From positions 1-64,000 of the forward strand of contig JAFCMP010000543.1 in NCBI GenBank assembly GCA_017506865.1: a DNA stretch of 64,000 nucleotides, in the 5' to 3' direction. The stretch is from Tribonema minus. Taxonomy: Eukaryota; Sar; Xanthophyceae; Tribonematales; Tribonemataceae. A program made the position numbers and the translations under genes. Each line of letters opens with the position of its first letter. The first letter of the stretch is position 1. Under the pieces are notes generated by a model. That model had not been told where the DNA came from. It did no database searches and saw only the letters and a list, made by a program, of their open reading frames with translations. Below are positions 20,233 to 39,329 of the stretch, one piece after another.

Positions 20233-21439
20233 TTGATCGTTTTCACTAATTATAGTGTGGCAGCGGCGAAGTTTTGGTGTACTGGGGTAGTGGCAGCACT
20301 GCAACTCGCAAACCAGCTCTTGCCAGCTCTTGCAGTACCTCAGAGTCTGAGTCAGCAAACCATGCATTATGTGTCAAAAGTTAATGTACGTTAAACTTTG
20401 CATGCTTTCAAGTCGCAGTCATGAGAATGGCACTGCAACACAACGTTGTGCTCACTGAGCGTACAGCATACTAACCTAAGGCTAGTAGAGCTTCAGCATC
20501 TTGATTTGATAAATCGTAGTTAGATGTCTACGTGCTATGTAGATGTCTACGTGCTGTTATTGATCATGCCATTGGCTAGGCATCATAATGCTTTGCTGCG
20601 CTTGTTGTTCTCTATCCACTACCAGCTCTTCGTAGTGCATCAGTGCTGATTACCTTGAGAGCTGCTGGTTCTGACCAGGTTTTGCCACAATGTAGCCTTA
20701 TGTAGCACCACCCATTCGGCAGCCCCCTCCTTTCCTGTCCACGCGAGCAGTAGCTGCAGCAGCGCTCCAGGACCCTCTCTCCTGACGCCGGACTCTTCGC
20801 ACCAGCAGAGGCAGCAAATGTTGTGTCCTGCGATCCGTCTACGAATAGCCGCGCCGTGAGCTAGCCGCACCGTGAGCTGCCAGAGCCCAGTGATCCGCGT
20901 CAAGTGGTTGTGCTTCACTCAGCCTTGGGGATAAGAAAGACTCAGCCATGGGCGTGGGAGAAAGAATCATGCATCTGGAGAAAGTGTAGTGGCTTATGCT
21001 GCTGTGTGGCTGAAAGGGATTGTGAATCGACTCCTGCACACAGTTGATTAAGTAGTGTGCCTCGCATGGTGTAGATGGTGTAGATGCATGGACCCTGAAT
21101 ATATTATCACACACCGGGACATTTTCAACGTCCCAACATCCGGGATGATTAATCCGCAACGGTTGTTGATCTTGGGGGGGGCTGGCGAAGCTGCTCTTGT
21201 GCGTCCTCTTGTACAGTTAGTGGTGTCCCGACCCGCTGCACTCTCGAGGCCTGGAACACTTTTCTAGTTTCGCGCAGTGCAGCAGTCGGTCGGGTTGCCA
21301 TACGAGGTCCTACACGCAACGTTTGTTACCTTTCCGCGACTGGTCAGCGGCAGGGCGGCGAAAGGTGCGTAAGATTGCGGTGGGCTGTGTGTGGCTGTCT
21401 CATTCCATTGCCTCATTCCAGCCAGCGTCCTGCGACATC

Positions 21440-23293
21440 ATGGTCTCCCTGAGCAGATGCGCCGGCTTGCTCAGCCTCTTGCTGTGCACAGTGTCATCAA
21501 GCAGCGCCGCCGAGCCCACTGACAACGGCGGTAGCGAGGTCCAACCTGGTGCGGGAGCCCGCTTCAACAAGCTTGCAGCGAAGGGTGACTGGTACGTGCA
21601 CTTAAGGATACGGTCCTGAAAGATAATGCTCACGGGGCACTTGTTGGGCAAAGTGCAGGCCGCCGTCGCCCACCTTGTGTCGCCAACCAACGCACCGCAG
21701 CTGTGTGAACCACATTGCGAAGTTGTTTACCGTTCCCGTGTATACAACATGGGGCCTGCCACAGTGGCCATGCCCCTGCTCGCATCACTACCCAGTAGTG
21801 CGCATACTCTCGGGTGCATGCCCAGCTGCTCGGTTACTTTTAGGACTTTGAAATTTGGCTCCGCTTGAACTCGCCGGGGCCCTGTGTATCAAAAAGATTC
21901 ACTTTGTTGCACCATCATTCAGCCTGTCAGTGAGATGCACCAATGAGTTGCCGAGGGTAGCATCATCAGCGAACAATCTGCCGCTTGCCACCAGCCCCGC
22001 ACAGACTATTGTTATTATATCGAACGCTGCTGGTTTCAACTTCGCCCTCAGGCTGTTGCTAACTTATTGAATAGTAATTACCTTAAGGCTTGCATAATGA
22101 TTGTGAAGTTCACCATTACAGTACTTGTACGCCGGCGGCGTGGTGACTGACTCACTTCGGAATTAGCACCATGACGCTATTTCTTTGCACCTAGCAACTT
22201 GAGATACGAAATGTACGTTTTGGTCACATCGCGGTGCAGATTAGCCTGCACTGACACCAGCCTGAGGTCGACATCACATTGCACTACTACTGTACTATTA
22301 TTAAGAGAGCCACGGTGACTCAGTCTGCCCTAAGGCTTGCAGCAGTTTCCACTCAGTCTGACTGCACATGTGGCGTGCCAGTGTCTGGTGGCATAAGGTC
22401 ATGACATTGAGCGCCAAACAGTTGGCATCTCAGAGGCATTTGGCCCTCCTGCAACATGCAGCATTGGACACCCACCTCATCATGGATATTTTGAACTACT
22501 AGTACATGCTATCAGTTTGATCCAAGACTTCAAGCATCAAATTGAATGTCAAAGTATGACTCTGAAATGACCTCCCGCATGCGCCTGCACACGCACTGGC
22601 AGGTACGAGGACAGCTACAAGGAGGTTCACGTGAGCTTTGAAAAAGGCGATGTGAACGGCAGCAACATCTGCAGTGGCAGGTTTGCGTCCATGTACCTTG
22701 GGCTGCATCGTTCCAGCAGCGACAGTTCTGTGGACGGCAAATCCTCGGACAGCTACGTCCACGTAAGATACCACAAGGGGACGTGGCGCGACTGCACACC
22801 CGACGAGACTTCTACCAGCAGCAGTTACTCCGCTTCCGGGAGCTGCTGCAGGGACAGAGTGACCCTCAGCGGGTACGCGACTCTCCCTGAGGCACCGCCA
22901 GGCACTTTCAAGCTCGGCCTGAAGGGCAAGCTCATCACTGCAAAAGTCGACGTTGCGGTGCCACTGGACCAGTCCTCGTCCAGCTCGTCAGACAGCAACG
23001 GCGCGTCGCTGACTGCCACAGCTGTGGTGAAGCTCCAAATGGACTGCGTCAACGTCATCAACAGGTACACCACCCAAGCCGGCGACAGTTGCGTGCGCGG
23101 AGACTGCGTCAGCTTCACCGGCGAGGATGACAAGTACTGGTGCACCACAAAGGCGGACGACGCCACACTCACCGGTACCATTGAGCTGAAGGGCGACATC
23201 GCGCTCACGGTCGACCTGGCTAAGCTGCCTGCAGGCTACACCATGTCTGCGCGCGCGGACTTTGAGGCCGACAATGGCAAGGTGATTAGTTGA
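21440..23293 (+). CDS. secreted Cys-containing protein, two exons (paralogue 1)
   Basis: Exon 1 is 21440-21591 and exon 2 is 22603-23293. The intron (21592-22602) starts GTACGTGC and ends GGCAG, and splicing restores a Trp codon. The product is 280 residues. It begins with a clear signal peptide (MVSLSRCAGLLSLLLCTVSS, cut probably near SSAAEP). The mature part is Ser-rich with CC and several single Cys (GSCCRDRV, DSCVRGDC, KYWC) and alternating beta-strand-like stretches. I recognise no family. The intron is conserved in position and phase in the second copy at 36794-38623, and both copies keep an open frame with matching cysteines, which argues for real selected genes. Possible cell-wall, extracellular-matrix or secreted role; the function is unknown. 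Confidence 0.8.
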
Positions 23294-24759
23294 GCAACAA
23301 GGCCGCAGTGCACAGGGCCGCTCGCAAGCAGGAGGGTCCACGCCTTGCTCACTAGCAGGCCCTTAAGGCTTGCTCACTTGCGGTCCGCACTAGATTCAAT
23401 TTGCTTGCTGCAGCCGCTTCTGACCGCAAGGACGCAAGTTGAAGCTGCAGCAGTGCACACATAGGATGCAGATGCAGAGTTTTTTCTTTTTTCGCGTGGC
23501 TTTTGTTAGCAAGTTGAACGTGCGCTCCTGGGAGCGTACGCCTCATGCAGAACTTGAAGTTGCAGCAGCTACTCGTAGGGTTAATAATGGCTCGAGGTTA
23601 CCTGCACACATGTGATTTCAAAGCGTGCATGCGCCCATAGTGTACAATAGGCACCAGCATGTTAGCTGCTGTTTAATAATATGTAAGCGCCAACCAGGAT
23701 GCAATCGTTGCCAAGTGGCTTTTGCAGTGGCAGTGTGTTTATCCTTTTGTTGCAACAGGCCCATATGCTGCAATAGCGTGCTGAAAGCCTCGCTGACATC
23801 ATTATGATGTCGATGATGTTGTAGGTTGTAGAACAGTGTCAGATGCCTGGTCAGTGACCTTGCACAATTCAACAAAAGCTCCATGCTACCGCACTTTCGG
23901 CATTTTGCTGCCCACGATTTTTTGGCTGCTGTGCTGATTGAATTCCCTCAGTGACCGCTGGCATGTTTGCACCAAAAGTGGCACTGCTCCAGCAGCTTAG
24001 TACCATTGACTGTCTGGCAAGGAGTCCTGCTTCACTGCAGTGTACCAGAGTTCATGGGCTGCTGTTTGAGGCAGGCCTCCAGTCTGAGAGCTTCAAGTCG
24101 TGCGTGCTGTGCTATTTTGCTTGCAAAGCGTATTCCTCTGGCCGCATCTACAATGGTGCACATGCTGACTGTTTGACATGTGCACAGCGTACTTGTACTT
24201 GCATGTATAGCCGCTTGATGCTACAGTAGCACGATGACCTGCCGATTGAGCTTGCATGCTGAGCAGCTGAGTTGCATTGAGTGTGAGAGTAATAAAGAAT
24301 CATTGCAGTGTATGAACAGGAGCCTGACTATACTGATATGCTCAACTGGCAATCTTGCCAATTGGCATTGATGATTTGCAGACAAGCACACTGTGGCACT
24401 TTTCCAGTCGACATCTATATGCTTGTCATAGCCAGCAACATATATGCATATATGCTTCAGGACTCCGGCAGGAGGCTTTGTTTATTTGGTGTTTGTGTTT
24501 CTGCTTTAGAACATCAGGAAGCAGAGCCACATGGCGCCACCGTGACGCATTGTACGCAGGCATTGTGTGGCGTCTCAGTTTGAGCACTTCCATTGTGTTC
24601 ATTTGGGTTTTGTCACACTGTTTGAAAGCTGGAAAAAAATGAGCATTGCATGCACGGCGCTCAATAGGGATGACATTGCATGCACGGCGCTCAATAGGGA
24701 TGACATTCATTGTGGTGGAGCACTGTGTGGTCCAGGTGCGCCGTGTGCCGCGTGATGTT

Positions 24760-25120
24760 GCTAACAGAGTGATGCTTATCTCAAGCGTGGTTGTAGCAAG
24801 CAGCAGGTAAGAGATCCAAAGGTGATCAAGTCCCAGAAAGCCCAAACCGCTATTTCGCCCCCACAGCTAAAGCCCCATGCTGCAGCCCTCTCCAGGCTAC
24901 ACTACTGTCAATGCAATACCAATGCACAGCAAATCCGCTATGCCGCAAGCTACTACCTTGCAAGCCGTCGCTACAGCTCCCCCAAGGCTCTGAACCAAGC
25001 ATTCAAAGCAAGCATTTTGCAGTTTCAGAACCTTCCAGAGCTGGCCTCAGAACTGGCCAAGAATCTTCAGGAACTATCCCTGCTGTCTAGCAATTTACTG
25101 TGTGCAACTTGAAAGCTTCA
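24760..25120 (-). repeat. 3' LTR of the chromovirus
   Basis: 361 bp matching 34621-34968. In minus orientation it starts TGAAGCTTTCAAG and ends CTGTTAGC. It holds a ~21-bp segment near 24803 that the other LTR lacks. Confidence 0.88.
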
Positions 25121-25393
25121 ATCCTACTAGTAACAGTCGCCCCCACTACAACGGTGCTCGTCCCGAGTACCAATGTTAAAGTACACAGTGCAATGCACAA
25201 AGCCCCCCCCACACAGTATCCCCCCCCCCCCCACTGCTCAGTTGAGCTTACTAGTAGGCCAAACGCCCCCTGTGACCTGTGCAGCAGTCTGAGAGTACTA
25301 TGCATTCGCAGGCTAATGCGCAAGAGCAAAGGTGTGGCAAACAACTGCGCCTCGCCATCTGCCTGTCACAACTGCTATGACCCCCCCCTCTGT
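25121..25393. other. 3' untranslated internal region of the chromovirus
   Basis: Between the 3' LTR and the last coding segment. Contains long C runs (about 25203-25233), G-rich on the element's sense strand, where the polypurine tract would be expected. No gene. Confidence 0.5.
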
Positions 25394-25732
25394 TCATGAA
25401 GGCGCCGCCCCCGCCTGCCTGAATCTTCTTGAGAGCGTTGATCCTTTGCTCGCATCAATTGCTAATGTGTGGTTGTTGAGCAAGAGCGGCACTTTGTGCG
25501 CCCGCGGCTCGCCAAAGAAATACACCCGAGTCGTGCCGCGCTTCGTGCGCCGGCTTGGCTGCCCCCCGCGCTCGCCTGAGAGGGCACAAACGCCCCTGCG
25601 TATGATGCCTTCGCACCACTGGAGACGCTGGCCATCCTTGTTGTCCGGGAAGTGCCACCGCATAAGGACGCGCACCTCAATCATATCTGTGCTGCGCATC
25701 ATCTCAAAAGATGGGCAGTCTCTGAGTTGCAA
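25394..25732 (-). pseudogene. chromovirus C-terminal segment, possible Tudor/Agenet-like fold
   Basis: A minus-strand open segment with VRVLMRWHFPDN, LQWCEGII, then RVYFFGEPRAHKVPL. The spacing of W-x-W/G and a V-x-F-x-G-x-x-x-x-H pattern recalls small beta-barrel chromatin readers such as Tudor or Agenet, but no signature is decisive. It follows the chromodomain in another frame. If real, the element would carry two reader modules after its integrase. Confidence 0.35.
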
Positions 25733-25764
25733 TACCCCCGCTGGTAGTCTATACCTACCCCCAG

Positions 25765-26217
25765 CTAAGGTGACAAGTGGGCCGCCCTCATGCGTACGCG
25801 CGCGCGCGCCTGCCTGAGGCGCCCTTGCACCACCCTGGTGCCAGCATCATCAATATCGACCCCCGCTACAGTTGCTGACACTGTATGCCAGTACTCCGCC
25901 GTTGCATGCTCGCATGCATCTAACATATTGGCATCCTCCCAGCTATCTGCAATGTGGTCGCCTTCCCACCGCACCAGGTACTGTAGCGAGCCTGGCCGGC
26001 CTTTGCGATCCCGTAGGACTCTATGCCCCACTACCGCCTCTACACCGTGTCGATCAGATGCCCATGTGACATCATCTGCTGTGGGCAAAGCCGGTGCTGG
26101 CGCCGCGAGTGGATTGCGACTGAGGAGGTACTGGGCATATCCGCCTGGTAAACCTTGCGGCTTACATTTGCTACCACCCGAATCAACGGCACCGCTTTGT
26201 GCCCCACGTGGACACAC
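25765..26217 (-). pseudogene. chromodomain at the integrase C-terminus
   Basis: Residues about 57-110 of this segment read as a chromodomain: VEAVVGHRVLRDRKG, then LQYLVRWEGDHIADSWED, then the final helix region CEHATAEYWHTV. The aromatic cage positions (Y, W, W) are present. Chromoviruses use such domains to steer integration to marked chromatin. It is one frame away from the integrase segment, so it is part of a broken polyprotein. Confidence 0.88.
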
Positions 26218-27400
26218 GCGTTCAACTTGGCCCCGCCCGCCCTGTCAATGAGCAGTACATTAGATTGCACCAGCTCCTTTCCTGCATCATGATAGATAAG
26301 CCCGACCGCTAGAAACCTTGTAGGTCCCCGCCCACAAGTCCAGCAGCTTCTTGCTGAGAACTGCTTTCCACCCCTCGCCAAACACCTCCCGCGATTCCGC
26401 CTTGTGTGTTGATGGTGGAGTAAACCCACACCAAGTCCCCCCGTTCCGCCTCATCGCGCAAGTTGAACCGTGTCGGCTAGCTTGGCGTTGTTGCGCACAA
26501 TGCGCTCACGCTTCAGCTCTGAGCGCCAAGACAGGTGCACCAGTTCGAATGCAGCTCGCTGCCGCGCTTGCATATCATGTACTGTGGCCCTTGCGCTGAG
26601 ACTGGCAGGCTCTGAACCCCTGAGCACTGCCCCCAAAACCGTGTGTAGAGCAGCCACCTTAGGCTCCCACCCCATCACCAACATGAATGGTGAAAATCCC
26701 GTGCACTGATTGACATGAGAGTTGTGAGCAAAAGCAACGTGCTTAAGCCACTTGTCCCAGTCACTATGTGATGCGCTGACTGCCATTGCCAGCATCTGTG
26801 CCAGCGTGCGCATGAAGCGCTCCACCCTGCCGTTGCACTGTGGGTGGTACGCGGTCGTGCAGAGTTTCCTGATGCCCATCGCGCGGTACACCTCCCGCAC
26901 CTCATCCGCCGTGTACTGGCTGCCTCTGCCGCTAAGCAGACTGTAAGGCATGCCGCATAGGAGGCTGAACTCGTCTACTGTAACAAGTAGCTCCGCTGCC
27001 GTGACCGCCGTGTTTTCCCCAGCCCTCACCGCGTACAATGACACGTGGCCTGCAAGTAGGCAGATGAATACGTGTATGTGCACATAAACCCCTCCTTGGA
27101 TAATGGCAGTGGGCCGAAGATGTCCGTTGAGACCGTGTAGAAGGCACAATGGCATGCGGCGGCAGCTCCCTGTAGATGGTGGGCATGCTGCTGCGCTTGC
27201 CGCCCTTGCGTGCTTGACATGGCAGGCAGTGCTCCGCCCAGAATGTGGCAGCGCCTGACCAGCCCAGCCACCAGCCATCATGTCTCCGAGAGTCTGCACT
27301 TTCTCCATTGTGTGTTAAATCCCCTGGTGTCCCGCCCACACCTCATCATGTAGGCAATGCAGAACTTGGTTCCGCAGCGCCTTTGGTATCACCAAAATGG
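26218..27400 (-). pseudogene. chromovirus integrase, catalytic Asp replaced
   Basis: The zinc-binding region starts near 27390 (LHDEVWAGHQGI, then an in-frame stop). The first catalytic Asp is in STDIFGPLP (about 27124). The second should sit in L-L-S-D-R-G-S-Q-Y but reads LLSGRGSQY (about 26930), a single-base Asp-to-Gly change. The Glu is kept in HPQCNGRVERFMRTL (about 26822). After the core comes a GPY-like region with a LLIDRAGGAKLN stretch near 26250. Frameshifts separate the zinc finger, first Asp and rest of the core. It would not be able to integrate DNA. Confidence 0.9.
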
Positions 27401-29181
27401 GTGAACCAGCGCCCCCGAGCGTGCTCATGTCATTGTGACATAGCAGCTTTGCGCCCCCAGCCGACTCCATGCTGCAAGCTGCGCGGTGCTGTTTCACCTG
27501 AGACTGCAGTGCCTTCAAGTTGTCAATTGGCAACTGCTGCGCGTCCGCCAAATGCGCCATCATGGCTGCACAAAATGCGCTCGCGTCTTGTGCTGCCCGC
27601 CAACTTGAATCCGCCGTAGACATGTCGCCGAGCGACTGTGCCCCCGGGCCTATATCCGCCTCCGTGGCAACTTGCGCAGCGCCGGAGCACTGCGCCGCCG
27701 CGCTGTTGGTGCCGCTGAGCTGCGCTGCACCGGAGTGCCGCGCTCAGGCTGCCGAGCCGCCAGTCGTGCTGGTGGGATGCGCTGCGCCAGGGCGCTGCGC
27801 GGCCGTGCCGTCAGTGTCGCCAAGCTGCGCGGCGCGGGAGCGCTGCGCTGCTGCGTCGTTGCTGCTGGGTCTGTCGCTGGCCTGCGCTGTGCCAGAGCGC
27901 CGCGCTGCCATGTCCTGAATGTTGTCAAGCAGCACTGCGCCTGAGCGCTGCGCCGCCAAACTGCCATGGGTGCCGCTGGCTTGCGCATTGCCGAAGCGCC
28001 GCGCCGCCGCGTCGTGAGTGCTGTCAAGCAGCACTGCGCCTGAGCGCTGCGCCACCGAACTGCCAATGGTGCCGCTGGCTTGCGCAGTGCCGAAGCGCCG
28101 CGCTGCTGCGTCATGAAAGCTGTCAAGCGGCACTGCGCCTGAGCGCTGCGCCGCCGAACTGCCAATGGTGCCGCTGGCTTGCGCAGTGCCGAAGCGCCGC
28201 GCTGCTGCTTCATGAATGCTGTCAGGTGGCACTGCGCCTGAGCGCTGCGCCGCCGAATGGTGCCGCTGGCTTGCGCAGCGCCGAAGCGCCGCGCTGCCAC
28301 ATCGTGAATGCTGTCAAGCGGCACTGCGCCTGAGCGCTGCACCGCCGAACTGCCAATGGTGCCGCTGGCTTGCGCAGCGCCGAAGCGCCGCGCCGCCGCG
28401 TCACCTACCGCCTTAAGTTTGGCTACAGCAGCCATGCCCGCCTCTTGTCCCCCCCCCTGCCGCTGCGGAATGCGCTGTAGCTGTCATGGCCGCGGGAGCC
28501 TCAGCCCCCCGTGCTGTATCATACCACCTCACCCTTTTAGTCACAGCGGCAACGTGGCTGCTCGCTGCTGCAGTATAAGGGCGTGCCGCTGTGGCAGTCG
28601 TTGACTTGGCTGCTGCTGCAGCGCTGAGCGCTGCTGCGGTAGCGTTTACTATTTGCTTGGCGGCCACGGCAAGTGCAGCACTTTCATGCCGCGCCGCCGC
28701 ACTCTCCACACCGCAATCACGTGCGCCCTCACTGTGGCACTCGCACCCGCCACTCCCCCCAGCGCTAGTGCCAGGCTGGCTGGCGCCGCAGAAGCACCGC
28801 CGCGAGTCACCACATGCATGTGGGTAACTCCGGGGCGCTCTGCGCCGCCGATGCGCTTGGTGAACCGCGACCAGTCCCCCAGTTGGGATGCCGCTGAGCC
28901 ATGCGCCCCAACATTGCCGTCGCCGTCATCGCTGTCGAGTTCCATGCACGTGTGTATCTTAGTGCACAGATCTTCCAACATGCGTGCCGCCAGTCGGCAC
29001 GTGGCATCGTGTCGTTGTGGGTCCGAGCTGACTCTGACAGTACACGCGTTTGCCTCCAGCAGCTCATCTGCAGCCTCCTCGGCCGCATCTGCTGCTGTAG
29101 ATGGCATATGGTTCCGGCTGAACCCATCTGCATTGCCGTTGCGCTCCCCTGCTTTGTACCTAATGGTGTGTGGGAAAGCCC
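27401..29181 (-). pseudogene. RNase H-integrase linker with 33-residue repeat array
   Basis: Minus-strand frames give Ala-rich linker sequence (29107-28450). A tandem array of 99-bp units follows (about 27700-28420), encoding variants of AAQASGTIGSSAAQRSGAV and PLDSFHDAAARRFG. The integrase approach (27623-27401) comes last. Chromoviruses usually have only a short linker here, so the insertion is unusual. The same repeat style occurs at the N-terminus of the element. Confidence 0.75.
27690..28420 (-). repeat. 99-bp tandem coding repeats, array 2
   Basis: About seven units; the word TGTCAAGC recurs at about 27923, 28022 and 28121, with a diverged unit near 28220 and another at 28312. Units stay in one frame (33 residues each). 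Confidence 0.85.
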
Positions 29182-30460
29182 CTAGGAACTCAAACCAGCG
29201 CGCAAGTCGCGCTGTCTTGTCCTTGCAGCTCTCCAGCCACAGCAGTGCTCTGTGATATGTGTCAATGACGAAGGGGGTGCCCCACGAGATGTGTCTGAAC
29301 TCTTCTTGACCCCGAACACTACCGCCCCCGCCTCCAAATCTGTGGTAACCGTTGTCCAGTTCTTCTGATGCTTAAGCGTTGCCCGGATGGCAAACGCTAT
29401 CGGATGCTCGACCCCGTGCATATCTGACTGCGACACTACTGCGCCAAACCCGAGCTTGGACGCGTCTGTTGCTAGGATGAAAGGACGGTCGCTGCTGGCT
29501 GCGGCTACATGATCTGGGTAGACCACAAGTGCATGAAGTGAAAGTGCCATATGGCCATATGCTGGCCTCCTCGATGGCAGCCAGCTCAGCAATGCTCATC
29601 ACAAGCGGCACGTCTTTTGACATGAGCGCCGTCAGCGGCGCTATCACCTCCGCCATGTTCTTCACAAACTGCCGATAGCAGTTGGCCAGCCCTAGCCAGC
29701 TCCGAAGCGCCGACAAGTCCTCGGGTATGGGCATGTCCAACAATGCTGAAACCTTTTCTGGTTCAGGCCGAATGCCGTTGGTCTCCACTATGTGACCCAG
29801 GAATTTGATGCGTGTGCATCCGATGTACATCTTTGCCGGAGCCAGCTTGATGCCGTGCTTGCGCATTCACTCCATCAGCGCTTGGAGGTCTGCTATGTGG
29901 GTGTCGACGTCCGGGGAGTGCACTATGACGTCATCAATGAACGACTGCACTCTGTCTAGCCCCTGTAGCACTATCTCCATGAGCCGCGTGAAGTGCCGAG
30001 GAGCGCCAGGTGCGCCCTGCGGGCAACTTGTCCACTCGTATAAGCCGAATGATGTTGCCATGGCGGTCAGCGGAATTGTTGACTGATCGATTGCCGACAC
30101 AAAGAAGGCTCCGCTGATGTCTATGCCCAAAAACTCCTGGGCGCCGCCTAGCGCGTTGAAGATGTCCTCAATCATGGGAATCGGGACCTTTGGAATCATG
30201 CTCGTTGCGTTGAGCCGCCTGTAGTTGGCTGTTATGCGGGCCGTGCCGTCAGGTTTCATCACCCCGACAACCGATGAGCTCCATTCTGACTGTGACGGTC
30301 TGATGATGCCCGCCGCAAGCAGCTTGCCCAGCTCAACCCGGACGAGCGCTGTCAGTGTGGGCTGTAACGGTATGGCCGATCTGCTACGGGGTGAGCACCG
30401 TCTTGTAATATTATGCGGAATGGGAGGGTTTTGCAGTACCCTAGGTCCCAATTGTCCTTG
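29182..30460 (-). pseudogene. Ty3/gypsy reverse transcriptase and RNase H
   Basis: The RT entry is CKTLPFRIILQDGAHPV (about 30440), followed after a frameshift by LGKLLAAGIIRPSQSEWSS, then KPDGTARITANYRRLN, then motif A FLGIDISGAFF, then motif C SFIDDVIVHS (about 29938, the FIDD form of the Y-x-D-D box). An in-frame TGA at about 29867 breaks the thumb (next ATG-started stretch RKHGIKLAPAKMYIG). RNase H follows in another frame with FILATDASKLGFGAVVSQ (Asp near 29466) and TTDLEAGAVVFGVKK. Order and motifs are those of metavirus pol. The stops and two frame changes make this copy inactive. Confidence 0.92.
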
Positions 30461-31535
30461 CTGAAGTCTGCTGCATAGTGCTGCAGTGAGATGATTAGGC
30501 GGGCGACCTGATCTGCCGTCCAGCCCTCGATCTCCACATTGACCTTGAGCAGGTGTGGCAGCAGCACCCGCTGTGCATGCTCCAAGACCTCCTGCACCGC
30601 AGGATCCCCGCTCACTGCCTCCCGCAGAGGAGCTTCTAACTTTTCTGCAGGCGGCGCTTGGCCAAACAGGCCGAACGACCACCCACAGTGCAATAGCGTT
30701 GCTGCCTGAGCAGCGTCCCCGTGACCTCCACCCCCAGGGCTGCCGCTGCGGTAGCTATCATCGCGATGCAAGCCTGTTTCCGCACCGCCGGCGTGAGTAC
30801 TGGCGCCAGCTTGGCGCGCAGCCGCCGCCGGAGCGTCGCGCGCGCAGCCTCTGCCTCCGCCTCCGTGCGTTTGCGCTTGCCGTTTGTTGCTATATCTGGT
30901 TGATCCGTTGAAGTTGCGGTGGCCCCTGCTGCTGAGTCGTCGAGCGCTCGGTTGCCCCTGCTGCTGACTCGTCGAGCGCTCGAAGCTCTTTCTGCCAGCG
31001 TGAGGCAGTTGAAAGTGAAGTTGAGGTTGAGCTAGTTGTGGCTGTGCGCGCTTTGTGAGTTGCACGCATCTGCCCAATGTCTGCCAGAGCCAATCGCTCC
31101 AGCCGTTCAGCTGTATCTGCAGCCGTGACATTCATGTTGAACCCTCGGCGCTGTTGAATGTGCGCTCTGAATCTGCTACTGGCTCCACCATGCCTGCAGC
31201 AGCGTTGTTGCTGGCAGCTCGCTCGTCGATGTAACGTTGCTGCTGTGTTAAGAGCAAAGTGCCCCAGCAAGTGCTGTAAGCTGCCGCCCATTCAAAATAA
31301 GTTCGGACAGTGCTCAGCTAGGGCCGCTAATGCGAGCTTCACATCCACTGCCGCCTCCACCACCGCTGGTGACTGCTGTAACTCGCGCGCTGCAGCAATG
31401 CGCCGCACCTGCACCGCCTGCAGTTGCGCGTTCTGCGCATCTAACCCTGCCGCTATGTCAGTGTGCGAGGTTGATGCCGTTGAGCCTGTGCGCTTCTGCT
31501 GCGACCCCACCAGGTGCAGAGCGCCCGCTCTAAAT
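30461..31535 (-). pseudogene. linker between methyltransferase and RT
   Basis: Minus-strand segments with Ala/Gln/Arg-rich sequence, a helical Ala-rich stretch right after the methyltransferase (AAVDVKLALAALAEHC), an in-frame TGA near 31292, and a 32-bp tandem duplication near 30925-30988. The last part (EIEGWTADQVARLIISLQHY) leads into RT. No enzyme motif seen. Confidence 0.6.
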
Positions 31536-32560
31536 AGAGCTTCCCAGACATAGTGAGCCATGCGCGGCGGTACCGCATTTGCCGGCACTTGCATATTGAC
31601 TTCCCGATCGCCGCGCTGTGGCTGGCCAGTTGTACGTCATGAACTTTGTGCTGACCGCCAGTAACTCCCCCCATGTGAGGTGCGTTGCCGCCGCCACCTC
31701 ATGTGGGTCCTCCGTTGCGTTTGCAAGGTTGTGCCGTAAGGAGCCGGTTTTGCTGTCTGACCGTGCATGTGGTTGCCGCCATACTGATCCCCTCAGCGTG
31801 GGGCATGGTTGTGTTGTATCTAAAATCTCTGGCGCTTTGGTGTTGCGCACGCAACAATGGAAATATGGGCGGTCATGCGTGCTGATGGCGTCAGCAACGC
31901 TCTGATATCCCTCCACCCCTTTTTCCGCAGCAAGAAGTGCTCTCAGCTGCTCGTGCACCCCCCGCCAATCCGCTTTCTCATCACGCGCAAGCTCGCCGCC
32001 ACCCTGGCGGCCACGCGTGAACATGATGAATACACGGCGCCGCTTTGTAGGCAGGCCGCAGTCGTTGCCACTGATGACGTTGTGGCTGTAGTCGAACCCT
32101 AAGCCCTGAGCTAGGTCTAGAGTCTGCTGGAACTCAGGTGTGCTCAGGAATCCCACCACGTTCTCCAATAGCACCATGCGCACTGTGCTGATCGCCGCTG
32201 AGACCTGCAGCATGCTGATGATGCACTGTATGCCCTTCTGAGAGCAGCGTTTGCCTGACATGCTGAAGTCAGTGCATGGGGGTCCACCGCTGGACTTCAA
32301 CCCCAAGTCGGCGTGCCTCCGCACTGATGTGCAGTCGAGCGCTGCGGTCGTTGATGTTAGCAGGCATTACTGTAGTGCCGCAGTGGTTGCTGGCAACTTG
32401 AAACAGGTTGCACGCCCGCTCGCTGATGTCTGACGCCAGCACTGTGTCCACAATTTGAAACGGTGTTGCGCCCTCGCTAAGCCCCCCTGCACCACAGAAG
32501 AGTTCCATGGCTTTGGGCTTGCGTAGGTTGCTGAGCAGTGGACTGCCGAACTCGTCGCAG
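31535..32560 (-). pseudogene. C5-cytosine DNA methyltransferase domain inside the retrotransposon
   Basis: All key motifs of a C5-cytosine DNA methyltransferase are present in order on the minus strand. Motif I (AdoMet binding) is ELFCGAGGLSEG at about 32505-32470. Motif II-like is VLASDISERACNLF. Motif IV is GGPPCTDFSMSGKR with the catalytic Cys near 32275. Motif VI is LLENVVGF (about 32165). Motif VIII is LPTKRRRVFIM (about 32055). Motif IX is QPCPTLRGS, and motif X is NAVPPRMAHYVWEAL (about 31579-31535). The span of about 325 residues fits a compact enzyme without N-terminal regulatory domains; the target-recognition region is short. Two frame changes (near 32300 and 31600) break it in this copy. 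It lies between the protease-like segment and RT, both on the same strand and inside the LTRs, so it belongs to the element. A methylating role in the element's life cycle is inference. Confidence 0.93.
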
Positions 32561-33128
32561 CTGCGCTCAGAAATTGGCGTGTCCTCCATCGCGAGCGCAC
32601 GGCCAATGGAGTGGCCGGGCCGCAAATCAATGTCCCCGCCTAGGGAACGTAGCACCACTGGCACCGCCCCCGTAGGCGTAAGCCCCACTGTGATGCGGTC
32701 CGCCTGCAGACCACCATGGTCCACGCGAACCTCTACTGACATGTCTTTCACTGTGCCAGGATCGTCTGCCAGTGGTTGAACTGGTGTTTTGCCATCTTCA
32801 TGGCATATGCGTAGTGAGACCCATCTGGCTTGGTCGCCGTTGACATGCGCGGCGCGCGCAACTACTGCGCGCCAGCGCTCCGTCGGGTCGCCGCCGTCCC
32901 TCACGCGCAGCACTGGCACAGTCCAGCCGCCGTCGCACTATCACACGGTGCCTGCCACGTTTTGGGCCCCGGTAGAAACTCTATGTCGATGATGTGGGGC
33001 TTGTCGCCGAGCCGTTGGTTGATGTTGTGTAAGCCAATCACATCACCCCCAAGCAGCATGGATGCCCCAAGATTGGGCACCACTAGAAAAATCCATGCCA
33101 GCTTCTGGTGTGCGGCCCACCGCCACAA
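32561..33128 (-). pseudogene. retropepsin-like end and leader to the methyltransferase
   Basis: After a frame change at a T run near 33085, the sequence continues FLVVPNLGASMLLGGDVIGL, like the C-terminal L-L-G-x-D motif of retroviral-type aspartic proteases. The active-site D-T/S-G itself is not convincing; FDTSRQ upstream at about 33180 is a weak candidate. Another frame change near 32935 leads to about 130 residues rich in V, D and R before methyltransferase motif I. Those residues match nothing I recognise. Confidence 0.5.
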
Positions 33129-33900
33129 ACGTGATGTGAAGTAGCACTGCCTTGTGCACCTTTGTGCACTGCCTTGATGTGTCGAATACCGCTAATATGC
33201 GCGGGTGCTCCTTTTCGAAGACTGCATCTGCGTGAATGGCGCGCTCATGCAGGAGCCGCTTGATCCGCGCCTCATCAATGCATGACGCTCCACGCCCTGA
33301 GTCGTACGACGCATCCTTAATCTGTACAGGTGGCTCTATACCGCCGCGCCGCCTGTCAACCGAACAGTTGAAAAGCATTTTAATGCCGCCATGGCATGTG
33401 AGGTGCCCCGGCTGCAGTCCACGTTGCTGCCACTGTGATGAGCCTATGCGCTGCTCGCGCATGCTCTGCATTTCTGCCGCGTGCAGGCAGTTGAAGTTGC
33501 GCTCAGCATCCGTTAACAGGTCGTCCCTGCTGTAGTCGCTGTTGAGCGCTGCAATAACTGAAAACTGAATGGCGTCTGCCACCGGTGATTCCGGTTCCTC
33601 AGGAGTGTAGCCCTTCCAGAAGTCAACACGCGCCGCCCGCGTAACTTCCCCGCCATCACCACAGTCTGAGTCGCCATGATCGCTGTCGCTCTCATCCCCG
33701 CTGTTGACATCTGTCATAGTTGTGTCGGCGGTGATGTAGCCCTTTGCTGCGTACTCTCTGCCCCCTAAGCAAGGAGAAGTGCTGCACTCCTGTGCAGCTG
33801 TGTCGGAACGCCGCCAGTTGAAGTTCAAGTCCTGGCAGCCAGTTGCTGTATTCACCGCAGCATCCTCTATACAGCCGTACGGCAGGGGGGATGTGATGTC
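33043..33900 (-). pseudogene. acidic Gag-like segment
   Basis: About 280 open codons on the minus strand. It has an Asp/Ser-rich acidic stretch (SGDESDSDHGDSDCGDGG), then DFWKGYTPEEPESPVADA and helical sequence. No CCHC knuckle is seen. The frame is open upstream through a C run at 33885-33890, where the preceding repeat frame could pass into it by a one-base shift; indel or programmed frameshift cannot be told apart. Confidence 0.5.
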
Positions 33901-34595
33901 AGGGCCGACAAAACGGCCTCAACATCAATCACGGAGCAGATGGCTCCCATGAACAATGCTGCCGAGGAGCCGCCGAGAGTGCCGTTGGGCTGCGCTGCGC
34001 CTAAGCGCTGCGCTGCCGCCGCATCATTGCTGCTGCTAAGCGGCGCTGCGCCGTGGCACCGCGCTGCTGAGCCGCCGAGAGTGCCGCTTGGCTGCACTGC
34101 GCCTGAGCGTTGCGCTGCCGCCGCGTCATTGCTACTGCCAAGCGGCGCTGCGCCGAAGCGCTGCGCTGCTGAGCCGCCGATATGGTCACGAGGCTGCGCT
34201 GCGCCGAAGCGCTGCGCTGCCGCCGCATCATTGCTACTGCCAAGCGGCGCTGCACTGAAGCGCTGCGCTGCTGAGCCGCCGATGTGGTCATGAGGCTGCG
34301 CTGCGCCGAAGCGCTGCGCTGCCGCATCATTGCTGTTGCCAAGCGGCACTGCGCCGAAATGCTGCGCCACTGAACCGCCGATATTGTCACGAGGCTGCGC
34401 TGCGCCGAAGCGCTGCACTGCAGCATCATCGCTGTTGCCAAGCGGCACTGCGCCAAAACGCTGCGCCGCTGAGCCGCCGATATTGTCACGAGGCTGCGCT
34501 GCGTCGAAGCGATGCGCTGCCGCGTCGTTGCTGCTGCCAAGCGGCGCTGCGTCGAAGCGCTGCACCGCTGAGCTGCCGATAGTGCTCAGCTCCAT
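33867..34595 (-). CDS. N-terminal 33-residue repeat protein of the chromovirus
   Basis: Opens with an ATG 26 bases inside the 5' LTR and runs 242 codons. It is built of 99-102-bp tandem units encoding variants of SAAQRFGAVPLGNSNDAAAQ and RFGAAQPRDHIGG. The final 30 residues are non-repetitive (FMGAICSVIDVEAVLSALT). The function is unknown. Its repeat type recurs between RNase H and integrase (27690-28420), so the element holds two related arrays. Confidence 0.55.
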   Translation of the reverse strand: MELSTIGSSAVQRFDAAPLGSSNDAAAHRFDAAQPRDNIGGSAAQRFGAVPLGNSDDAAVQRFGAAQPRDNIGGSVAQHFGAVPLGNSNDAAAQRFGAAQPHDHIGGSAAQRFSAAPLGSSNDAAAAQRFGAAQPRDHIGGSAAQRFGAAPLGSSNDAAAAQRSGAVQPSGTLGGSAARCHGAAPLSSSNDAAAAQRLGAAQPNGTLGGSSAALFMGAICSVIDVEAVLSALTSHPPCRTAV

Positions 34596-34620
34596 GTTGA
34601 ATTTCCCTCAGACTCCTCCA

Positions 34621-34968
34621 GCTAACAGAGTGATGCTTATCTCAAGCGTGGTGGTAGCAAGCAGATCAAGTCCCAGAAAGCCCAAACCTCTATTTAGCCC
34701 CCACAGCTACAGCCCCCTGCTGCAGCCCTCTCCAAGCTACACCACTCCGTGAGTCAACGCGATACCAATGCACAGCAAATCAGCTATGCCGCAATCTACT
34801 ACCTTGCAAGCTGTCGCTGCAGCTCCCCCAAGGCTCTGAACCAAGCATGCAAAAGCAAGCATTTTGCAGTTTCAGAACCTTTCAGAACTGGCCTCAGAAA
34901 CTGGCCAAGAATCTTCAGGAACTATCCCTGCTGTCTAGCAATTTCCTGTGTGCAACTTGAAAGCTTCA
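34621..34968 (-). repeat. 5' LTR of the chromovirus
   Basis: 348 bp, about 94-95% matched to 24760-25120 outside indels. Downstream on the minus strand the sequence is TGGAGGAGTCTGAGGG, in the primer-binding-site position; the matching tRNA was not identified. Confidence 0.88.
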
Positions 34969-35347
34969 TTTCTAACCATTGCGATAAAAGAGTGCCACAG
35001 TGAAATAACCCATGCCGCACTCTATCTGTGGCCTTTAAACAAGAATACGTACGTCAACCCACTGTCGCACTGTATGTATCATTTGAGCTCTATCACGCCC
35101 TAAGCAAGTCTTAGAGTGCATACAGCAACAAATGCTTAAGCAAGGACCCAAAGCCATCGCCAGTTGGTATCGCTCGCTGCCATCGCAATACCGTCACGTG
35201 AGTGCACCCCATGTTGTCATGCATCTGCGGTCTGAGCTCAGTTGAGCACAGTTTTGGCTCAGCTGTATGTCATTGATAACATTGCATGCGCATGCTACAG
35301 CCCCAGGGCCCCTAAGCACTCAGTCTGCACACCTCTGGTCAATTTGT

Positions 35348-35735: not shown

Positions 35736-36793
35736 TAGCCTAGTACTAGACGTCTGAGACTATTGGTAAGTTACTGCATTTCTGACTCACTGACAGAGTC
35801 AGCAAGCAAAGTGCAAATTGAATGTCAAGAGTTCATGTGCGTGTGCATGGCATTGCTCCAAGTTGCAGTCATGACAATGGCACTGCAACACAACTGCTGT
35901 GACACTGAATTTCTGAAAGTCCTAGACATAGTGTAGTAGAGCCTCTGAGCTTCAGCATCAGATTCTTCATTTTATCGGATCCGATCGAATCGATGTCAAC
36001 TTGGCAATGATAATCATTGTTAACGTGCTATTGTTGACTATGGCTAGGCATCAGGACTGCGATAGTTGTCATCTTTTCCACTACCAGCTTTGAGTTATAC
36101 TTACATCATGATGTTGATTACCTTGAGAGCTGGGTCGGCAAGAGCACTTTATCATATGATGTAGCACCGCCCATCGGCAGCCCCTCTTCAGCTTTCTGTG
36201 CAGCAGCGCTCCTGCGAACTCTTCAGCATCCGCACTAGCAGAGGAGGCAGCAAATGTTGTGTCCTGCAATCACTGTCTCCGAATAGCCGTGAGCTGCCAA
36301 AGTCCAGTGATCGGCGTCAAGTGGTTCAAATATGCGTGTACTCAGCCCATGGGCGATGCATCTGGAGAAAACAGTGGCTGATACTATGTGGCTGGAAGGG
36401 ATTGTGAACTGACTCCTGCACACATTGACTAGTGTGCCTTGCATTGCCGGTGGTGGGCGATGATGGTGTTGGAATCCTGACACCGGGTAATCCGCTGTTA
36501 CGGGTGGTGATCTTCAAGTTTTGGATGTTGCTTTTTGTACAAAAGCCGGCAATGCAATGAAAATTTTGCGATGGTTGGTGGTGGTCCCGACCCGCGCTGC
36601 ACTCTCGAGGCCTGGGATACTTTTCTTGCGCGCAGTCAGGTTGCGTTGCCACACCATTTATGATATTCACCTGTAGACCTCCCCAACGGTTAACGTTCCG
36701 CGAGTGGTCAGCGGCAGGGCGGCGAAATGGCCATCAGCATGTGTGTGTCTGTCTCATTCCATCGCCTCATTCCAGCCAGCGTCCTACGACATC

Positions 36794-38623
36794 ATGGTCT
36801 CCCTCAGCAGATGCGCCGGCTTGCTCAGCCTCTTGATGTGCACAATGTCATCAAGCAGCGCCGCCGAGCCCACTGGCAACGGCGGCAGCGAGGTCCAACC
36901 TGGCGCGGGAGATCGCTTCAACAAGCTTGCAGCGAAGGGTGACTGGTACGTGAATACGGTCCTGAAAGATCATGCTCACGGGGCACTTGTTGGCAAAGCG
37001 CAGGCCGCCTTCGCGCACCTTGTGTCGCGTCGCCAACCAACGCACCGCAGCTGTGTGAACCACATTGCGAAGTTGTGTAGTACCGTACTTGCGTTTACAA
37101 TATGAGGCCTGCCACAAGTGGCCATGCTCCTGCTAGCATCACTACTCAGCAGTGCGCATACTCTCAGGTACATGCCCTGCTGCTCGTCTACTTTTTAGAA
37201 CTTTGAAATTTGGCTCCGCTTGAAAGCGCCGGGGCCCTTTTGTATCAAAAAGATTCACATTGTTGCACCATCGTTCAGCCTGCCAGTGAGATGCGCAAAT
37301 GCGTTGCCGAGGATAGCATCATCAGCGAACAATCTGCCCCTTGTCACCAGCGTCACACCGTGTGACACTCACTGACAGTCTGTCAGAATGGTATTGTACT
37401 ACAGCGCAATACCGGATACGCTGCTGAGTTCAACTTTACTCTTGCAGAATGATTGTGAAGTTCACCGTACTACAGCGTGGTGAATGAATTAGCAACGCGG
37501 TGACGCTATTTCTTTGCATCTAGCAACTTGAGATATCTGTATATACAACATGTACGTTTTGGTCACCGGGCCGTCGCGGTGCAGATCAGATTGCACTGAC
37601 TTGCACCAGGTCGACATCACATTGCACTAAGAGGGCCACTGTGACGGTGACTGCCCTAAGGCTGACAGCAACTTCCACTCAGTCTGACCGCCAGACTGAG
37701 TGTCTGGTGGCATAATGTCATGACATTGAGCGCCAAACAGTTGGCATCTCAGAGGCGGGCTCCTGCAAGCTGAACTTGAAGTTGAACATGCAGCATTGAA
37801 CAACAACTCTCGTCATGGGTACTTTGAACCACATCCTATCACCTTCAACTTCAGGCATCTTGAAATCGATTGTCAAGGTCCAAAATGACCCCCCGCATGC
37901 GCCTGCACACACACTGGCAGGTACAAGGACAGCAACAAGACGGTGCGCATGAGCATTGAAAAAGGCGATGTGAACGGCAGCAACATCTGCAGTGGCAAGT
38001 TTGCGTCCATGAACATTCGGCTGACTCGTTACAGCAGCGACCGTTCTGACAGCGATAAATGTTCGGAAAGCTCCGTCAGCATATCCTACCGCAGGGGGAT
38101 GTGGCGCGACTGCGAACCCGACGAGACTTCTACCAGCACCTATGGTGGTGGTTACTACGGCTTCGACAAGAGCTGCTGCAGCGACACCTTGCACCTCACC
38201 GGGTACACGAGTGTCCCTGAGGTGGGCATTTTCAGGCTTGGCTTGAAGGACAAGCTCATCACTGCGGTAGCCAACATTGAAGTGCCACTGGACCAGACCT
38301 CGTCCAGCTCATCGGGCGACAACACCGGCGGGACGATCGTCACAGCTAAAGTGTCGCTCCAAATGGACTGCGTCAACGTCATTAACAGGCACAACATCTT
38401 TGCCGGCGACTTCTGCTTGCGCGGGGATTGCGTCAGCAGCACCGGCGAGCAGGACATCAACTGGTGCGCTACCGCGGCAAACACGGACGACGCCGTACTC
38501 ACCGGTACCATTGAGCTGACGGGCGATGTCAAGCTCAAGGTAGACCTGGCCGCGCCGCCTACCGGCTACACCGTGTCTGCGCGTGCGGACTTTGAGGCCG
38601 ACAAGGGCAAGGTGGTTGGTTGA
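36794..38623 (+). CDS. secreted Cys-containing protein, two exons (paralogue 2)
   Basis: Exon 1 is 36794-36945 and exon 2 is 37921-38623. The 975-base intron begins GTACGTGA and ends TGGCAG, at the same position and phase as in paralogue 1. The product is 284 residues, with the same signal peptide (MVSLSRCAGLLSLLMCTMSS) and the same order of motifs: EKGDVNGSNICSG, RDCEPDETSTS, a CC pair, LQMDCVNVIN, CLRGDC, and the end SARADFEADKGKV. Roughly two thirds of residues match paralogue 1. The differences cluster in the Ser-rich and Tyr/Gly-rich (YGGGYYGF) loops, while Cys positions are kept. Unknown family. The pair arose from the direct duplication described separately. Confidence 0.8.
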
Positions 38624-39329
38624 GCAACAAGGCCGCAGTGCACAGGGCCGCTCGCAAGCAGGAGGGTCCATGCCTTGCTCACTAGCAGTCCCGTAAGGCT
38701 TGCTCACTTGCGGTCCGCACTAGATTCAATTTGCTTGCTGCAGCCGCTTTTGACCGCAAGAGCGCAAGTTGAAGCTGCAGCAGTGCACACATAGGATGCA
38801 GATTCATTTGTTTTTTCGAATGGCTTTTGTTAGCAAGTTGAACGTGCGCTCCTGGGAGCGTACCCCTCATGCAGAAGTTGAAGTTGCAGCAGCTACTGGT
38901 AGGGTACGGCTCGAGGTTACTTGCACACATGTTATTTCAAAGCGCGCATGCGCCCATTGTGTACTTCAAAAGGCACCAGCATGTTAGCTGGTGTTTATGG
39001 CGATCCGCCACCAGGAATCGGCGATGCAATCAATTGGCAAGTGGCTTTCTTTTGCGTTTATTCTTTGTCTGTGCAAGTTGCAACAGGCCGATCTGCTGCG
39101 ATGCCGCTGAAAGCCTCGCTGACATCATTCTGATGTCGATGATGTTGTAGGCTGTTGTAGGTTGTAGAACAGTGTCAGAGACCTGGTCACTGACCTTCCA
39201 CAATTCAACAAAGCTTCACGCCAAAGCACTTCAACATTGTACTGCCCACAATTTTCTGCTGCTGTGCTGATCGAATTTATTCCCTCAGTCACTGCTGGCA
39301 TGTTCGCATTATAAGTGACATTGCTCCAG

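Follow-up and report, generated by a model that had tools for sequence, protein, structure and literature searches.

We analyzed a window of 64,000 nucleotides from the xanthophyte alga Tribonema minus (assembly GCA_017506865.1, contig JAFCMP010000543.1, positions 1–64,000), which includes on its minus strand a degenerate long terminal repeat (LTR) retrotransposon whose polyprotein (Pol) contains a C5-cytosine DNA methyltransferase (DNMT) domain. The layout of the element was obtained by tblastn with two queries, the sister copy L009, which is less decayed, and the database relative P0130, and the LTR ends were set by alignment of 14 LTRs of the family. Read along the minus strand, the order is 5′ LTR, repeat-rich 5′ part, retropepsin-like region, DNMT, reverse transcriptase (RT), RNase H, repeat array, integrase, chromodomain and 3′ LTR, and includes the order protease, RT, RNase H, integrase between LTRs of Ty3/Gypsy elements (Metaviridae). 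The features are the following:

24762–34978, minus strand: whole LTR element, a degenerate copy of 10,217 bp (LTR pair and 4-bp target duplication; domains by Pfam and tblastn)
34979–34982, no strand: target-site duplication GCAA on the element's 5′ side (read in the sequence; register set by the family LTR alignment)
34623–34978, minus strand: 5′ LTR (Kimura two-parameter distance to the 3′ LTR, 0.073)
32997–33351, minus strand: retropepsin-like region with a frame change inside (tblastn with L009, 90–100% identity)
32545–32993, minus strand: conserved region in the protease–DNMT interval (tblastn with L009)
31484–32529, minus strand: DNMT domain with two frame changes (PF00145, E=1.2e-12; tblastn; motifs)
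32482–32508, minus strand: DNMT motif I, MELFCGAGG
32262–32288, minus strand: DNMT motif IV, GGPPCTDFS
32148–32171, minus strand: DNMT motif VI, LLENVVGF
32028–32048, minus strand: DNMT motif VIII, TKRRRVF
31785–31808, minus strand: DNMT motif IX, PCPTLRGS
31559–31582, minus strand: DNMT motif X, ANAVPPRM
29771–30441, minus strand: RT, with FIDD at 29927–29941 (RVT_1, E=2.1e-12; tblastn)
29153–29547, minus strand: RNase H (RT_RNaseH, E=2.4e-6; tblastn)
27650–28483, minus strand: array of repeats of about 99 bp (repeat search), with a second array at 33867–34607 (33.9–34.6 kb)
26832–27398, minus strand: integrase zinc-binding domain and core (tblastn; both Pfam scores under the curated cut-off)
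25873–26067, minus strand: chromodomain, downstream of the integrase (PF00385, E=3e-8; 72% to P0130)
24762–25135, minus strand: 3′ LTR (repeat pairing and family LTR alignment)
24758–24761, no strand: target-site duplication GCAA on the element's 3′ side (sequence and family LTR alignment)

The DNMT domain is recognized by PF00145 at 31533–32366 of the minus strand, and the neighboring open reading frame (ORF) 32272–32937, also on the minus strand and covering motif I, matches the same profile under the cut-off (16 bits, E=0.0086). All six motifs (I, IV, VI, VIII, IX and X) occur in order across the frames, with PC in motif IV and ENV in motif VI, and the domain of this family has the class I methyltransferase fold with a target recognition region. 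An earlier note on this DNA had placed these motifs at 31535–32560, on the coding strand of an LTR retrotransposon with a chromodomain, between a retropepsin-like end and the RT, and proposed that the DNMT had been captured as a domain of the element; all of this holds, with the slightly different limits given above. No repeats of 16 bp or longer that could mark a separate insertion flank the DNMT in the window copy. The host assumed in that note, a chlorophyte, was wrong, T. minus being a stramenopile. A public T. minus hypothetical protein, P0003, shares a 249-residue run with part of window ORF 33046–33918 and a 222-residue run with the whole of ORF 32272–32937, and is the annotated form of the window copy itself. 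Of 292 database proteins matching the DNMT of a sister copy, 120 were listed, and among these P0003 alone bears the name of a eukaryote.

The window copy is old and broken, that is, dead. Its DNMT is spread over three frames, with changes near 32.29 and 31.62 kb, and the pieces of its RT carry stops. The retropepsin-like ORF, which includes the peptide DSGRGAS (33283–33303), gave no Pfam match.

We searched the T. minus assembly (158.2 Mb in 554 contigs) for further copies. The window DNMT yielded 143 matches, and the PF00145 profile scored 123 of 378 candidates; merging 133 rows of the first set with 55 of the second gives at least 180 distinct DNMT places, a lower bound counted without one-by-one checks that includes fragments and broken copies. 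The RT of the window family gave 111 matches in 84 places, and a DNMT match lies 0.5–2.7 kb upstream on the same strand in 68 of them, the other 16 having none in our lists. Since chance alone (180 places in 158 Mb) would give only about 0.3 of the 84 places a same-strand DNMT in the 6 kb upstream, the pairing of DNMT and RT goes far beyond chance. A second RT group occupies 95 places, 64 with a DNMT and 31 without one in the lists; one of the latter, on contig C545, carries a divergent DNMT when read, so that the missing cases are partly a matter of search sensitivity.

Three sister elements, on contigs C550, C52 and C515, have LTR pairs of their own with the DNMT inside each pair and in the same place as in the window copy; with this and the lack of flanking repeats, both conditions that the earlier note had set as refuting are excluded. 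They are flanked by the duplications CCAG, TGCT and TTAC, respectively; as each has a different 4-bp duplication, they represent independent insertions, and a DNMT inside the element ends is common to four insertions with four flanking duplications. Their LTRs start and end with TGTTA and are 0.008–0.022 apart, compared with 0.073 in the window copy. A search for a primer-binding site gave an 18-base pattern present only at two element places and no tRNA.

Besides the window family (type A), further types of DNMT-bearing sequences (B to J) were distinguished. The DNMT occupies the same place in types B and C as in the window family. In type C, locus L023 has a single frame of 2634 codons comprising protease, DNMT, RT, RNase H, integrase and chromodomain, although its protease, rve and Chromo matches fall under the Pfam curated cut-offs (Chromo just under). 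A single in-frame TAG separates Gag and Pol of this type in a conserved setting (L022–L026; e.g., L024:1659–1661). The TAG is followed by GGG TG(C/T) in all five loci and preceded by ACC in four. In three of the five (L023, L024, L026), the frame in which it stands has no other stop over 552 codons or more on the upstream side and over more than 2600 on the downstream side; L022 is broken. This arrangement points to stop-codon readthrough in type C, a mode of expression that is unusual for Gypsy elements. The type C copy on contig C66 has 213-bp LTRs that are 97.2% alike and a GCAA duplication. A 1660-bp stretch upstream in the copy on C13 has 42 genome matches, of which 24 (its own among them) cover the full length at 100% after rounding and four more are partial at 100%; such near-identical copies imply recent activity. 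The copies fetched were partly picked for long frames, and their openness gives no share of intact copies.

Types D, E and F have open frames of 2743–3177 codons (L028, L042, L041) in which the DNMT precedes the protease. The type D frame has Pfam matches to the DNMT at 984–1131, to a weak protease at 1547–1630 and to the RT from 1974 on, and the sequence analyzed ends in the integrase; the protease of types E, F and J was recognized by eye only, and Pfam found no chromodomain in types E and F. In type I, the DNMT is located between RNase H and integrase. Across separate Gypsy lineages, the domain hence takes three places in Pol: in the protease–RT interval, ahead of the protease, and in the RNase H–integrase interval.

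The catalytic cysteine and ENV are retained in all 18 Tribonema rows of a motif alignment of 26 retroelement sequences, with drift in motifs IX and X in types D–J and motif IV reading SSC in type F and SNC in type I. We compared nonsynonymous and synonymous substitution rates (dN/dS, Nei–Gojobori) between pairs of copies. In the closest informative pair, L023/L026, dN/dS is 0.064 for the DNMT and 0.069 for the RT, and 0.59 for the spacer between them; L023/L025 (0.65) is nearly identical and too close to be informative, and two pairs with type D are saturated. Purifying selection on the type C DNMT is thereby indicated clearly in one pair, and the remaining pairs are consistent with it at a weaker level. 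Because dS differs strongly among DNMT (0.41), RT (0.20) and spacer (0.09) in L023/L026, these values also suggest recombination between subfamilies.

With respect to the class of the enzyme, a DNMT tree of 67 rows was constructed, of which 26 are from retroelements (18 from Tribonema and 8 from databases, among them P0001, whose membership in an element is not established). It includes 20 of 161 prokaryote and viral loci (21 were picked; L160 was removed for a stop), omits seven rows of an earlier tree, P0213 among them, and was built without Dnmt4, Dnmt5 and the Klebsormidium and Symbiodinium DNMTs. The 26 retroelement rows share a 100/98 branch with enzymes of bacteria and phages, and a mouse DNMT1 fragment, the Dnmt2-like row of Tribonema and further bacterial rows stand outside it; to judge from this tree, the retroelement DNMTs are of bacterial type. 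Their grouping with mouse DNMT1, represented by that one fragment, was rejected (approximately unbiased test, p-AU 0.0027). Best matches in sequence searches of the PDB were DNMT1 for type A, a prophage enzyme and DNMT2 for type C, and DNMT2 for types F and G. No DNMT3 chain was found with types A, C, F and G at the thresholds used, and the same search with P0213, a database protein, returned DNMT3B first and can hence detect this class; we accordingly set DNMT3 membership aside, on absence in a search whose set did not contain the Klebsormidium Dnmt3. The 50-entry VIA-align list for type A, likewise without a DNMT3 entry, was not used as evidence.

A single clade of all retroelement DNMTs was not rejected either in the earlier tree (p-AU 0.379) or in the 67-row tree (0.356), and the trees are compatible both with one ancestral retro-DNMT that passed from element to element and with repeated capture from related donors. 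Since the Pol positions of the domain differ, separate insertion events are favored. The C-terminal part of two free-standing database DNMTs, P0052 and P0070, resembles by eye the DNMTs of types D–F (L042), which may hint at a donor. A protein database search with the type C DNMT gave 3521 candidates, none at E 0.001, and was insensitive, since a search with RT–integrase found such proteins; among viral contigs, the family A DNMT gave five pattern matches and no relative. Three loci on contigs C223 and C181 of the T. minus assembly (L043, L044, L045) have stand-alone frames of 367–390 codons with the top three PF00145 scores of the 123, lie on a long separate branch in the DNMT trees, and are possibly viral or host enzymes.

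The L023 RT–integrase query found 162 database proteins, 120 of them listed, whose unnamed members are taken to be from metagenomes. An RT tree was built from 59 rows, 49 taken from the 120 listed proteins and 10 from Tribonema; in it, 12 database proteins form a group (99/94) with the window family and types B and C. Seven of the 12 carry a DNMT (P0126 and P0127 by custom profile only), and P0121 starts too late to tell. P0122, P0123, P0125, P0128 and P0130 combine PF00145, RVT_1, rve and Chromo in one protein. Within the tree, P0133 splits first and P0132 follows in a fork of uncertain order, whereas P0124 and P0129 lie deeper in the clade, next to rows whose active site is dead; the simplest story would be a gain of the DNMT after the first split, followed by loss of the active site and of the domain in two lineages. 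P0122, P0123, P0126 and P0128 all belong to this clade and have the DNMT domain in frame without the catalytic cysteine, P0122/P0123 and P0126 being sisters of the domain-less elements.

The DNMT clade adjoins a lineage in which four of nine rows carry a NADAR domain (PF08719), the two together at 100/99. A chromodomain at the C-terminus of the integrase, a chromovirus trait, is present in the window element, and the earlier note had called it a chromovirus. The RT does not bear this out: joining the clade with the chromodomain/Tf2-SH3 group (eight rows from Cercospora, Haematococcus and others, fungal and fish elements included) was rejected (p-AU 0.0003) in a tree whose reference set contains no canonical named chromovirus. 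Types D, E, F and I lie elsewhere (type I on a long branch of unsure place), and a single RT clade of types A–C with D, E and F was rejected (p-AU 0.0005). None of the ORFs scanned with Pfam has NADAR in Pol. As the genome search gave a single NADAR place (C7:464959–465360), the brown-algal Gypsy lineage with NADAR is apparently absent or rare in T. minus.

Traces of methylation were sought in base composition. Against three sisters, the window copy shows 37 transitions at the 658 CpG positions and 44 at the 1980 C or G positions outside CpG (odds 2.6, p 4e-5), the excess being of G-to-A changes (24/328 versus 19/1073). These transitions fit methylation of old copies, whichever enzyme was responsible. 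The LTRs of family A (34623–34978 and 24762–25135 in the window) have observed/expected CpG ratios of 0.29–0.33, compared with 0.87 for the whole element; for type C the ratio is 0.72 in C66 and 0.24 in the partial LTR of C13.

Taking these data into account, we give about an even chance to the following interpretation: the window element is a dead copy of a T. minus Ty3/Gypsy family whose Pol acquired a bacterial-type C5-DNMT, which is made with Pol and methylates the DNA of the element itself. The domain, its motifs, its location in the polyprotein, its joint inheritance with the RT, the selection acting on it and the near-identical copies are shown; beyond this, we infer that the enzyme would be catalytically active and of benefit to the element. 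In the younger type C relatives, the DNMT lies behind the single in-frame UAG, in Pol, and would for this reason be made together with RT and integrase. It would then be packaged into the particle and, most likely, act on the element's new double-stranded cDNA, methylating it before or at integration; the chromodomain on the integrase would steer insertion into already silent chromatin, where the new copy would resemble methylated host heterochromatin.

Several observations weigh against this interpretation. Among the more distant type C pairs, dN/dS is 0.19–0.23 for the DNMT, 0.12–0.13 for the RT and 0.27–0.30 for the spacer, i.e., the DNMT is less constrained than the RT. For type E against type F, the spacer, at 0.17, has no higher value than the DNMT, at 0.19. 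In the four pairs with DNMT values of 0.19–0.23, dS is above 1. In the database rows, the cysteine is gone in four of eight (P0122, P0123, P0126, P0128) and ENV in five (the same four and P0127). Four of the 12 database members of the RT clade (P0124, P0129, P0133 and P0132, the last starting at the protease end) have no DNMT up to the RT; these losses and the members without the domain make the DNMT dispensable. C-to-T transitions taken alone show no significant CpG excess (13/330 versus 25/907, p 0.35), and the excess could stem from host enzymes. Finally, 15 element-bearing loci are not CpG-poor (observed/expected 0.80–1.13, versus 0.55–0.95 in 4-kb bins of the window).

Other explanations have to be considered. 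It is rather unlikely that the enzyme methylates RNA, either the genomic RNA of the element or its primer tRNA, protecting RNA or tuning reverse transcription. The DNMT2 tRNA methyltransferases that are the best PDB matches of types F and G, the fact that type C matches DNMT2 nearly as well as the prophage enzyme, and the RNA substrate suggested for a long interspersed nuclear element (LINE) DNMT inactive on DNA (PMC5890265) favor such a role; it is opposed by the DNMT tree, which sets the retroelement enzymes apart from the Tribonema Dnmt2-like row (itself long-branched and of unsure place), and by the VIA-align list for type A, headed by M.HaeIII and DNMT1 with DNMT2 lower. Just as improbable, in our estimate, is an action in trans, on the host or on rivals, for which the enzyme would be kept, silencing rival elements or dampening the element's own rate. 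The DNMT places, numerous and many of them broken, could alter the host methylome, as suggested for Symbiodinium (PMC5890265), and the CpG-poor LTRs of family A would spare the element's own promoter; yet the type C enzyme, lying behind the UAG, is probably made in small amounts with RT and integrase, and the C66 LTR is less CpG-poor, although that of C13 is poor.

Somewhat less probable again is a domain without enzymatic use, be it a passenger, a decaying relic or a part kept for binding only. The broken window copy, the open polyprotein frames of the four cysteine-less relatives and the position of the domain-less P0124 and P0129 as their sisters are what this would predict; the catalytic residues kept throughout the Tribonema rows and purifying selection at RT level in L023/L026 are not. 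A later unrelated insertion of a DNMT into one copy, or an assembly chimera, was rejected and has a negligible probability, given the same place of the domain in C550, C52, C515 and types B and C and the database relatives with the full domain set in one protein.

Building on self-methylation of the cDNA, a bolder proposal is tentative and, in our view, rather doubtful as a whole: that Gypsy elements of the yellow-green algal lineage took up bacterial-type DNMTs at least three times, as the three Pol positions would suggest; that the chromodomain clade is a self-contained writer-plus-reader, which methylates its own cDNA and inserts into matching silent chromatin; that the elements, with at least 180 places, are possibly the main source of DNMT genes of the alga; and that in relatives elsewhere the active site was lost first and the domain dropped afterwards.

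Capture of DNMTs by retrotransposons is known in principle. De Mendoza et al. (2018; PMC5890265) report it for LINE and DIRS elements of Symbiodinium and for a Gypsy element of Klebsormidium, with CG methylation by retrotransposon DNMTs in yeast and a proposal of cDNA methylation. KnitGypsy-Dnmt3 of Klebsormidium nitens resembles the Tribonema elements in having a C5-DNMT in a Gypsy Pol, several copies and purifying selection (Ka/Ks < 0.2); it differs in its Dnmt3 class and DIRS-like repeat arrangement, whereas the Tribonema elements, in a stramenopile host, show no DNMT3 likeness in the sequence searches, carry the DNMT at three Pol positions and end in simple direct LTRs bounded by 4-bp duplications. 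SymbioDIRS-Dnmt3 and SymbioLINE-Dnmt share with them the many DNMT copies in one algal genome and the co-inheritance of DNMT and RT, but are DIRS and LINE elements with Dnmt3 or orphan DNMTs (PMC5890265). The bacterial and phage C5-DNMTs (M.HaeIII/M.HhaI fold class; relatives from Acidimicrobiia, Rhizobiales, Bacteroidia and IMG/VR) have the same fold and catalytic motifs and are the nearest non-retroelement relatives in our tree; they are free-standing genes, unlike the polyprotein domain of Tribonema. P0213 also has its DNMT upstream of a Gypsy RT, but with DNMT3A/B as best match and a PHD finger; its RT groups with elements of Chlamydomonas, Monoraphidium and Haematococcus, and it is a separate KnitGypsy-like case, perhaps from a chlorophyte. 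For DNMTs linked to RTs, PMC5890265 cites its reference 3, reportedly the work of Iyer et al. (2011).

For Ectocarpus, PMC12477816 describes NADAR in the N-terminal part of Pol and chromodomain Gypsy lineages that are not chromoviruses, and it mentions a Tudor-domain Gypsy in T. minus. The likeness to our elements is the RT sister group with NADAR in part of its rows, a link made by the shared domain, with no Ectocarpus-named row in the tree; the extra domain is NADAR there and DNMT in Tribonema. For T. minus itself, a DNMT5 and a DNMT4-clade protein are listed (PMC10538959). PMC6338049 refers in passing to Gypsy and DIRS elements that are "DAM- and DCM-encoding" and come from several groups, stramenopiles among them; it does not specify the enzyme per group, and this may be an earlier mention of a stramenopile DCM case. 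In the portions searched of the open-licence PMC literature, including PMC12344493, PMC9998398 and PMC3145265, no DNMT retrotransposon of a xanthophyte is described. With respect to these sources, the principle is known, and the host group, the enzyme type and the several architectures are new.

A parasite carrying the silencing enzyme of its host is a paradox, as DNMT-bearing elements may themselves set the mark by which hosts silence them. To the published cases that we found, in dinoflagellates and one charophyte, Tribonema adds a stramenopile, a bacterial-type enzyme instead of DNMT3, three Pol positions, near-identical copies that imply recent activity, and a polyprotein that also includes a chromodomain. 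The relatives, some with an intact active site, some with a dead one and some lacking the domain, form a natural series on the purpose of the enzyme. Because Tribonema is sequenced and can be cultured, long-read methylation calling offers a way to test what a DNMT does for a transposon.

Two further observations concern the sequences in and around the element. Family A elements have arrays of the repeats of about 99 bp, with open frames, in two places, one on either side of the enzyme domains; such an array also lies at L009:6847–7500. In the window, the element is flanked by two similar stretches, 21325–23876 and 36689–39212 (77–95% alike in pieces), which lie about 15.3 kb apart, or about 5.1 kb without the 10.2-kb element; the element seems to have landed between two tandem copies.
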